Shown here: in pieces, positions 1 to 53,182 of the stretch
Layout: every line of letters starts with the position of its first letter
Numbering within the stretch: the first letter of the stretch is position 1
NCBI GenBank assembly: GCA_938010045.1
Contig: CALLFZ010000008.1
Span: 1-64,000 of the forward strand
DNA: 64,000 nucleotides
From: an uncultured bacterium
GTDB lineage: Bacteria; Verrucomicrobiota; Kiritimatiellia; PWTM01
Direction of reading: 5' to 3'
The notes under the pieces: generated by a model
Told to the model about the DNA's origin: nothing
The model's input: only the letters and a program-made list of their open reading frames with translations
Databases searched by the model: none
Made by a program: the position numbers and the translations under genes

Positions 1-215
1 GGTTCGGAAATGAGCGGCCGCTACCGGCGACGGCAAAGGGAGGGAAATATCGCTGACCCCAACGACCGCACACCATTCGCCGGCGCCTTCCTCGGGACAG
101 GCACCCGGATAGACGTTGGGACGGGACATTGGGGACAGGCATGGATTATTGGCCGGGCACTTCGCGACCGTCGCCTCGCGCCCGCCACCATGGAGCCGCC
201 ATGGAGACCGCCCGA
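1..215 (-). repeat. Dispersed intergenic repeat, copy A (opposite orientation to copies C/D)
   Basis: Shares ccggcga..gg.a.ggg..g.aatatcgctgaccccaacgacc...ccattcgccgg and ..ccattggggacaggca...ccgggcacttcgcgaccgtcgcctcgcg..gccaccatggagcc with 9800-10020; its left part is the reverse complement of 52980-53070. Confidence 0.7.
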
Positions 216-1010
216 AGTGCACTCCTACCCCGCACCCAATCCCCTCGCCTCACCCCTCAAAACAATTCACAGCACCTTCGGCTCAATCTGACCAAGTACG
301 CCTTGAACGTCACGGAGTTCAGCGACACGTTCGGAACGGAAGCCTCGGCGGTGAAGGCGCAGACAATAGCGCAAGTGCCATCGTGCAGCATGGCCATGAC
401 GTAGGAACTAGCGGCAGGCTCCGTATCGGCATGTCCGCCAGGGGCGTTCGCACGAGTCCAAGCTGAGCCCACGACGAGGCGTGATCCTTATTGAATGTGA
501 CACGCTCCTAGGATTGTTGTTTTGCCGCGGACGACGGCGAAGACATGATGGGGGCTCGCCCGGGCGGGAAACCTCAACGAAGCGAGCGCTACTAGCCAAG
601 AGGGAACGACTAGAAAGAAGAGTTGACCGACGCACGTTCGCATCGGTTTGGACGCGCTAGCCCGGCTCCACGCCAACACTTCGACGCCGCTGCTCGAGCG
701 GCCGCACTTCGGGGGCTGCAGGGCGCGAGCCCACGCTCGTTCTCGCTGACGTCGCTCCAAGACCACGGGCGGTGGGCCGCTCCTTTTACGAAGAGATGGC
801 CGGAGCTTCGGCAATTCCGCAGGGGCTGCGTGGGGTGCGCTGCGATCAGGAGACCGTCGTCGCCCCCCGCCAACGCTGCGGCGGAGGCACGATGCCCGCC
901 TGCCGCATTCGAACGTTCATACTCGGCTTGTGGGCATTCGTATCCAGGTCGGCCGGCATGGTGGCCGGCCGTAGACCACACGGAGGCTCGTCAGTCTGAT
1001 CCTGCTCACT

Positions 1011-9669: not shown

Positions 9670-9789
9670 ACGATCCCTGGTCTTGATCCATACGAGCCGG
9701 ACCGATGGTCGAACCCGCCCTCGTACAATCTATGAACCACTCCGTCGGTGCACAAGCTGGCCACCGCACGACCCAATTCCGCTGGTGAG

Positions 9790-10425
9790 ACATCAGCTGG
9801 AGATAGAGGCCTCGGCGAACGAAGGGGAACATCGCTTACCTCAACAACCCTGTGCCATTCGTCGGTGTCTCCTTCGGAGACAGGCACGGGGGACAAGGCA
9901 CGAACGGCGGCACCTAGGACGGCCATTGGGGACAGGCACGCCGGATCGGTCGGGCACTTGGCGAGCGTCGCCTCGCGCTAGCCACCCTGGAGCCACCATG
10001 GCAACAGGCACCTCTTGGGGCGGCACTTCTGGGGCCGCAGTGACTGGGGAAATCGAAGAGGGGTGCGAGGGGCGCGGGGGGCCTGTCCCCGGGGGGCCTG
10101 TCCCCGTCCCGCTACCCCGTCCGCGATTGGGGACAGGCATATGCGCATACATCGCAACTATATCGTTTTCCGTATATTGTGACTTCTTGTCCGGTGCCTG
10201 TCCCCATTGGGCTCCGGGCTCGAAAACCCCGCAAGGAAACCTTCCACTCCTGCCGCCTCCCATTCTTGCGGTCGTTTTCGCTTCGCGAACCACGACGCCC
10301 CACAAGCGTCGAGCCGGACCTGGCGGTGGGAGGCTCCTTTTGGGCCAGTGGCAGTCCATGGTCTTCGATGGGGGACAGGCACAAGTGCAATCCAATCCAT
10401 AGCGCAATCGGCTCCACGCAGCGCG
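9790..10425. repeat. Dispersed intergenic repeat, copy B, with GGGGACAGGCAC/GTGCCTGTCCCC motifs
   Basis: Aligns with copy A along ~220 bp; GGGGACAGGCAC at 9928-9939 and 10371-10382, GTGCCTGTCCCC at 10194-10205, GGGGACAGGCAT at 10129-10140; ends in agcgcaatcggct, shared with 43999-44011. Confidence 0.7.
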
Positions 10426-43469: not shown

Positions 43470-43724
43470 GTCTTCCTTCTATCACGTGCACAGACGGAAA
43501 GCGATTCGCAAGAGACGGACGTCGAACCACGGCCGGGCTCGCCGAAGCCTGTGGCGAAGGCGTCTTGGCCGCTGGAACGCTGTAGTTCCGCCGGTCCCTC
43601 GGCGGAAGATCTGGGGCAAGAAAGCTCCGGCGGCAGAGCGCCGCAGCTACAGCAGAGCGCCGGAGCTTGGCGCTATAGTTCCGCGAGGCGGGACACAGAG
43701 GATGGGGACAATGCGGGCTGGATT

Positions 43725-44013
43725 CGGACGCCGTGGAAGGCGTCCGTCCAGGCATCGAGGCCCTCAATCAGAGGAAAAGGCAGGTGCCGCTCCCCCATCG
43801 ACCAGGCGACCAGGTTCCTGGCCCCATTTGCCCGCGATGGAATTGGAAGGACGGCTCCCACGCCCTCCGCGATGGTTGAAGGGTCGAAACATTTTTGTTT
43901 TGGGAACTCGGCGAGAACAAACGGTGGTGCGGGGTCGTTGGGGTCAACGATGTTCGCCTCCCTTCGCCGAGACTTTGATGTATCGCTCACCCCCCACAGC
44001 GCAATCGGCTCAC
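43725..44013 (+). repeat. Dispersed intergenic repeat, copy C
   Basis: ggattcggacgccgtggaaggc...gcgatggaattggaaggacggctcccacgccctccgcgatggttgaagggtcgaaacattt...cggggtcgttggggtcaacgatgttcgcctcccttcgccg aligns with copy D 52815-53085. Confidence 0.85.
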
Positions 44014-44091
44014 GGGTGGGCGCCGCAGCTAGACGGTGGCCCACGAAACCGCTATACTAATGTGCCATTGTGGCCGCGGGGCCGCCCTCCC

Positions 44092-52508: not shown

Positions 52509-52562
52509 TCGCATAGCCGATTGCGCTGTGGGTTGTTCTTAAAGGGGTGAGACGAGGGGGCT
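52509..52562 (-). repeat. Fragment of the dispersed repeat (agccgattgcgctgtggg ... aaggggtgagacgaggggg)
   Basis: AGCCGATTGCGCTGTGGG is the reverse complement of 43995-44012; ttgttcttaaaggggtgagacgaggggg resembles the reverse complement of 240-268. Confidence 0.5.
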
Positions 52563-52770
52563 GGAGGCGGGAAGGCGTGAACATTTTCATCATAAGTGAA
52601 CAACCTCGGGTTTCTCTAGTTCTGCCTCCAGAGTGCTGCTTCGAGATCGCCCCTCTCTCTCCTCGACCGTTTTCGGTCTGCGCCTTAGCGGCTGAGAGCT
52701 CGCGTGGCCTGCGACTGTCGAGCCGTAGGAGCGGGGGGGAACCCGACCCTCCAAGGTCTGCTCCGAGGCC

Positions 52771-53085
52771 GGGGACAGGCACACGCCAGCCCGACCGATC
52801 CGCTGCCACGCGGCCCGGATTCGGACGCCGTGGGAGGCATCCCCCAAGGGATCGAGTCAATCGGAGGAAACGGCAGGTGCCTGTCCCCACCAACCGAGGA
52901 GGTGCCTGTCCCCATTTCACCAGCGATGAAATTGGAGGCACGGCTTCCACGCCGTCCGCGATGGTTGAACGGTCGAAACATTCGTCGTTTTTGCGGGAGC
53001 GGCGAAAAAACGGCGAAAGGCGCGGGATCGTTGGGGTCAACAACATTCGCCTCCCTTCGCCGGCACTAGGATGTATCGCGTATTC
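52771..53085 (+). repeat. Dispersed intergenic repeat, copy D, with three GTGCCTGTCCCC-type dodecamers
   Basis: GGGGACAGGCAC 52771-52782, GTGCCTGTCCCC 52877-52888 and 52902-52913; remainder aligns with copy C. Confidence 0.85.
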
Positions 53086-53120
53086 CTCGTCGCGCATCGG
53101 CTCGGCGCCCCGGCCGGCCC

Positions 53121-53182
53121 CTTGACAATCCATGGCGAGTGTGATAGTCAAGTACTTGACAATCCACGGACAGTGTGATAGG
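53121..53182 (+). promoter_or_regulatory. Tandemly duplicated promoter-like unit (34-bp period) with perfect palindromic junction GTCAAGTACTTGAC
   Basis: CTTGACAATCCATGGCGAGTGTGATAG (53121-53147) and CTTGACAATCCACGGACAGTGTGATAG (53155-53181); TTGACA boxes at 53122 and 53156; palindrome 53147-53160. Confidence 0.6.

Follow-up and report, generated by a model that had tools for sequence, protein, structure and literature searches.

A family of miniature transposons in a Kiritimatiellia bacterium appears to insert at a fixed distance upstream of predicted promoters

Results

Our analysis of a 64,000-nucleotide stretch of the genome of an uncultured Kiritimatiellia bacterium (contig CALLFZ010000008.1, C8:1-64000 in our numbering; hereafter the window) indicates that a dispersed repeat found upstream of metX and of a PEP-CTERM gene is a family of non-autonomous transposons (MITEs) of ~0.2-1.2 kb. 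As judged from sequence comparison, this family inserts in one orientation, with its right end 18 bp upstream of a predicted sigma70-type -35 box. Very probably, these MITEs stem from an IS5/IS1182-like DDE insertion sequence and came to lie 18 bp from promoters through an asymmetric use of their two ends.

The initial annotation had noticed long near-identical blocks shared by two intervals of the window, copies C and D. Pairwise alignment confirms that this likeness is not due to chance, a self-BLAST of the window aligning 43713-44011 with 52810-53103 over 308 columns, 77% of them identical (E = 4e-56). The same search matched 31-204 to 9813-10001 (71%) and, on the opposite strand, 45 bp at 31-75 to 43969-43925. 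Further copies are abundant in the genome to which the window belongs (G000; 3.2 Mb, 49 contigs, 98% complete), with 41 places detected by BLASTN and ~97 at E <= 0.01 by a sequence profile built from 29 copies. The best-conserved core is the last ~135 bp, that is, the right end of the element, closing with ..GCGCAATCGGCTC. The ~280-bp unit proposed at first was too short: its left part differs from copy to copy and holds unrelated short repeats, and the true element extends further, as the limits of copies C and D illustrate (Table 1). As presumed from the two original intervals, the repeat is intergenic, since none of 90 copies falls inside a called gene. Its position 40-130 bp before a plus-strand gene also proves to be general: a same-strand gene comes next downstream in 67 of 89 copies, at a distance of mostly 34-200 bp, and the upstream neighbours lie several hundred bp off (these counts rest on a simple codon-usage gene caller). 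The places with retained copies include tRNA genes, metX and many others.

At least two more short repeat families, likewise abundant, are nested in the MITEs (loci L079-L158; in the window, for example, at 52840-52920 and 43540-43720). The repeat AGGTGCCTGTCCCC occurs in 58 of 90 flanks and in both orientations, and the palindromes CTGTAGTTCCGCCGGTCCCCCGGCGGAAGATT and CTCCGGCGGCAGAGCGCCGGAGCTACAG are found within MITEs as well. These short repeats seem to use the MITE interiors as a landing ground.

Table 1. Coordinates of the elements and of the adjacent predicted promoters in the window.
Feature	Position	Strand	Description
Copy A	1-284	-	MITE truncated on the right where the contig stops (base 1); left end at 284
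Copy B	9770-10414	-	MITE running from a left end at 10414 to a right end near 9770; profile match 9766-9879 (E = 3e-14)
Copy C	43538-44011	+	Decayed MITE upstream of metX, left end putative; profile match 43870-44015 (E = 7e-30)
Copy C, right terminal inverted repeat ACAGCGCAATCGGCTC	43996-44011	+	Exact reverse complement of the left-end motif GAGCCGATTGCGCTGT
Copy C, right target-site duplication ACGGGTGGG	44012-44020	.	By direct comparison; 9-bp duplication established over 41 copies
metX promoter (predicted)	44030-44058	+	-35 TAGACG 44030-44035, 17-bp spacer, -10 TATACT 44053-44058
Copy D	52514-53103	+	MITE upstream of the PEP-CTERM gene, 590 bp from inverted repeat to inverted repeat; profile match 52959-53107 (E = 5e-27)
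Promoter beside copy D (predicted)	53122-53150	+	-35 TTGACA 53122-53127; -10-like TAGTCA ~17 bp on (GATAGT at 15)

The suspicion that the repeat was an old mobile element is borne out by terminal inverted repeats, target-site duplications, recent copies in a relative and an empty site in a congener. Inspection of the k-mers to the left of the cores recovered GAGCCGATTGCGCTGTG, the reverse complement of the right end, at 322-1111 bp upstream of it. This is the left end of the element, with the extended consensus GAGCCGATTGCGCTGTGGATTGTTTTGAGGGGTGAGACGAGGGGTCTGG, and it is paired with the right inverted repeat CACAGCGCAATCGGCTC. Both ends are present in 41 copies, 213-1172 bp long. In these copies, the 9-mers flanking the two ends are 58% identical, compared with 28% in controls that pair the left flank of one copy with the right flank of another (z = 12.6), and lengths of 5-8 and 10-13 bp give no such signal (z < 2). 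The flanking 9-mers agree at six or more of nine positions in 21 of the 41 copies, where 0.9 would be expected, and four pairs are perfect; the family leaves a 9-bp target-site duplication that has partly decayed. An earlier test that sought exact matches anywhere in the 2.5 kb leftward had found none, since it preceded the location of the left end and most of the duplications have decayed.

In the window, positions 236-284 of copy A agree with the left-end consensus at all but 7 of 49 (profile match 6-116, E = 5e-15), and copy D runs from the inverted repeat TAGCCGATTGCGCTGTGG at 52514 to ..GCGCATCGGCTC at 53103. The right end of copy C is certain; its left end is placed at 43538 on account of a degenerate inverted repeat beside a candidate duplication, ACGGCCGGG at 43529-43537, which matches the right-hand duplication in 7 of 9 positions and is followed by CTCGCCGAAGCCTGTGG.

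The position of the copies before genes was correctly seen at the outset; it is not incidental, however, the right end standing at a fixed distance from predicted promoters. In the pooled right flanks, TTG emerges at +19 to +21 (0.51 for T, 0.44 for T and 0.55 for G) and a -10 signal spans +42 to +47, and the 18 bp between the element and the -35 box are unconserved. When we scanned the 140 bp next to each element with generic sigma70 weights, the best predicted promoter lay exactly 18 bp away in 21 of 86 copies of G000. The same held for 15 of 40 copies in G005, a genome from another genus of the same family that was not used in forming the 18-bp hypothesis and served as an independent test set. 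Together, 45 of 126 right flanks from the two genomes have their best promoter at 17-19 bp, against a mean of 2.95 and a maximum of 7 in mononucleotide-shuffled flanks. The same scan gave no promoter signal outside the left ends.

The -35 boxes beside copies C and D both start 18 bp past the end of the element, and the best promoter-like pair of copy B, TTGTGC-17-TAGATT, lies ~14 bp past its right end. The promoter beside copy D is doubled in tandem (53122-53178, TTGACAATCCATGGCGAGTGTGATAGTCAAGTAC then TTGACAATCCACGGACAGTGTGATAGG). At 18 bp, a promoter is not recognisable in over half of the copies; some of these are old, and others may lie next to promoters that use other sigma factors or have been assigned a wrong end. 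Among diverged relatives, the offset of 18 ranks first in both right ends of G149 (another family), second in three of G014, and first in G062 and in one copy of G002, and the rule is absent from the left-type ends of these relatives.

Copies are patchily distributed, being numerous in G000 and G005, represented by five strong matches in G008 and absent from G001, a congener of G000. Of 338 genomes of the class, 18 contain the end motif with <= 1 mismatch, and an exact-pattern scan of named genomes did not retrieve the core pattern. A G005 subfamily of 12 copies has a median identity of 93%, sharp right ends and unrelated flanks, and has therefore moved recently; in 7 of these 12, the offset of 18 is already the best of 140 positions. 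Selection alone would not account for this spacing, because the copies are too young. The congener G001 provides the empty site: metX and the gene to its left are adjacent there, ~500 bp closer and with no element in between, and the predicted metX promoter TGGACG-17-TAATCT aligns with TAGACG-17-TATACT of the window. Since this promoter exists without the element, the promoter at metX is older than the insertion. In G149, a complete element of 453 bp is bounded by CAGCGGAGA and AAGCGGAGA. Left ends from G084 (L210-L213) and G008 (L217-L219), which belong to different families of the class, are near-identical over ~140 bp; this suggests recent horizontal spread, binning errors being a less likely explanation.

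Transposase remnants lie at a fixed place within the elements. An open frame in G005 begins ~180 bp inward of the right end and runs toward the left end, and remnants of its N-terminus are present at this place and on this strand (about -180, opposite strand) in 19 copies of G000 and 8 of G005. C-terminal remnants are found in 9 and 2 copies, respectively, and one 907-bp element (L170) retains both. In G062, a promoter-like TTGACG-18-TATAAG stands just ahead of the transposase start codon. Another genome of the phylum, G590, contains a full-length homologue (444-residue reading) with 47% identity across the first 77 residues. It is carried by an element of 1784 bp whose 18-bp ends, AAGCCGGTTGCGCTGTGG and CCACAGCGCAACCGGCTT, are perfect. 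TTGCCG-17-TATGTT lies 19 bp outside the corresponding end of this element, and a 9-bp duplication was not recognisable around it. The homologue matches the Pfam domains DDE_Tnp_1 (5.5e-14) and DUF772 (8.9e-7). Its nearest NCBIfam models are IS1182 (82 bits, cut-off 270) and IS5_4 (71 bits, cut-off 140), both far from the score needed for assignment to either curated family.

With inverted repeats at both ends, a target-site duplication of fixed length (9 bp), ~97 copies in G000 that contain transposase fragments only, and ends in common with an autonomous element, the repeat has the hallmarks of MITEs, the last of these by way of the G590 element, a diverged homologue and not the identical parent. 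The remnants at their fixed place, together with the G590 homologue, make internal-deletion remnants of such an insertion sequence the best reading of these MITEs. We infer that a DDE_Tnp_1/DUF772 transposase moved them, the identity of the driver being deduced from remnants and one diverged homologue because neither G000 nor G005 yielded an intact transposase. Contigs break inside the ends of copies in G005, G008 and G084, which suggests that an intact parent was lost in assembly, and a plasmid search with the transposase N-terminus returned a single weak, insignificant match. Transposase genes resembling those of IS66 and IS1380 stand beside some G005 copies; read by eye, they belong to other insertion sequences at or in the elements and are not the drivers.

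Discussion

The process that produced these MITEs can be outlined as follows. A parent insertion sequence with 16-18-bp inverted repeats would have encoded a DDE transposase (DDE_Tnp_1 plus DUF772, IS5/IS1182-like) transcribed from ~180 bp inside the right end toward the left, and internal deletions would have turned it into MITEs. The transposase would handle two unequal ends differently, so that the right end enters the synapse facing a promoter, and make a cut in the target that is staggered by 9 bp, its centre falling some 13-14 bp before the -35 box. The observed 18 bp would then comprise the duplicated target (9 bp) and a further 9 bp before the -35 hexamer. The promoter itself would pick the site, most likely through bound RNA polymerase holoenzyme. 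We prefer this reading to direct recognition of promoter DNA because the insertion point, near -54, coincides approximately with the edge of the polymerase footprint, which ends at about this place, and because both hexamers are needed for the signal. On the host side, the core promoter would be left intact and the sequence upstream of ~-55 replaced.

Other explanations have to be weighed against this one. A fixed promoter spacing and the preservation of copies beside tRNA genes, metX and many other genes might also be expected of a regulatory DNA element, such as an activator or UP-type site, that inserted at random and whose spacing is held by selection, its mobile origin being incidental. 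However, the recent near-identical copies of G005 already occupy that spacing, the congener G001 has no copies, subfamilies with different inner right-end sequences share the same distance, and the distance is measured from the end of the transposon plus the 9-bp duplication, so that we consider this account very unlikely. Even less can be said for a conserved structured RNA or leader, to which we give practically no credence: the consensus folds at -59.7 kcal/mol, but a test for covariation yielded -2.98 kcal/mol with RNAalifold and compensatory changes in 0 of 10 pairs, so the alignment lacks a covarying secondary structure. Most single copies, moreover, fold no more stably than shuffled sequence (z near 0), no Rfam family matches at the copy places, and the element lies upstream of the promoter, hence outside the transcript of the downstream gene. 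The G+C-rich right end of the consensus, its long hairpin fold and the short REP-like repeats nested in the elements could recall palindromes of the REP/BIME type, which a RAYT (Y1) transposase disperses, as in the initial description of the repeat as REP-like. Long inverted terminal repeats and 9-bp target-site duplications are a DDE signature, and REP elements, to our knowledge, leave no duplication of this kind; the family does not fit a short palindromic unit that a Y1 transposase moves with no target duplication, and a REP origin is highly improbable. The preferred identification as MITEs of a DDE insertion sequence replaces it.

The closest precedent is found in Mutator-superfamily transposons. 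TnGBS/ISLre2 (p-MULT 3) and part of the ISKra4 group (p-MULT 4) insert at a fixed 15-17 bp (~16) upstream of sigmaA -35 boxes, the right inverted repeat facing the promoter and the unequal ends setting the orientation (Guerillot et al. 2014, PMC3942029). The elements described here behave similarly, with a fixed distance (18 bp) and a single orientation, at the right end only. This matching orientation rule, the nearly equal distance (PMC3942029) and a degenerate ISKra4/ISLre2-like gene in the same genome (G000:C38:65550-66256; L199, L200 and L203), a pseudogene with a stop, raise the possibility that our MITEs belong to a Mutator-type transposon. The pseudogene, however, has no matching inverted repeats nearby, and family searches found no full-length ISKra4, ISLre2 or Transposase_mut protein in G000, G005 or G008. 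Both the remnants within the elements and the intact homologue, whose ends match, are of DDE_Tnp_1/DUF772 type and give no Transposase_mut, ISLre2 or ISKra4 match. A Mutator-type driver is therefore largely refuted, and we regard this origin as very unlikely. As a separate observation, G149 contains two insertions of a different insertion sequence (L204 on C500 and L208 on C354), with an ISKra4-type transposase fragment and ends GTGCACCC just upstream of promoter-like sequence; these are consistent with the published ISKra4 rule.

The DDE-type family described here thus differs from TnGBS, ISLre2 and ISKra4 in its transposase, in its distance of 18 bp and in consisting almost entirely of MITEs. 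Its transposase is akin to those of the IS1182 and IS5 families, the best NCBIfam matches of the G590 homologue, although the scores of the latter fall far under both family cut-offs. We found nothing equivalent to promoter-targeted, orientation-fixed insertion by IS5- or IS1182-type elements in the open-access literature. Like other bacterial MITEs, such as the Correia, ERIC, Coxiella and Porphyromonas elements, these are short, non-coding sequences with inverted ends that derive from insertion sequences and occur in tens to hundreds of intergenic copies, but we know of no single exact distance and orientation to a promoter for any of those four. Several known MITEs also carry promoters of their own, whereas here the promoter is that of the host. 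In eukaryotes, the yeast retrotransposons Ty1 and Ty3 dock on the transcription machinery of Pol III genes and in this way insert upstream of them, at a set distance from the transcription start. The resemblance is a functional analogy only, as these elements use retrotransposon integrases and eukaryotic machinery, and docking in our case is what we infer.

Promoter-seeking insertion is known for one transposase superfamily, the Mutator type, and would appear here in an unrelated DDE_Tnp_1 lineage. If true, a second unrelated transposase with a like rule (one orientation, 18 bp from the -35 box, 9-bp duplication) would be a case of convergent evolution, and comparing the two lineages would make it possible to test whether promoter DNA or bound polymerase is recognised. 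More tentatively, and with somewhat less than even confidence, we suggest that the IS5/IS1182-like lineage acquired polymerase-docking insertion independently of Mutator-type transposons, its right end landing at the upstream edge of the footprint. Should docking be real, RNA polymerase would be a recurrent guide for bacterial transposons. For the host, insertions that spare the core promoter and replace what lies upstream of ~-55 would offer a route by which a genome sheds or exchanges the upstream control of many genes; the 3.2 Mb of G000 contain ~97 copies, beside tRNA genes, metX and many others. The right ends of these elements may also serve as natural markers that point to promoters in unculturable bacteria.
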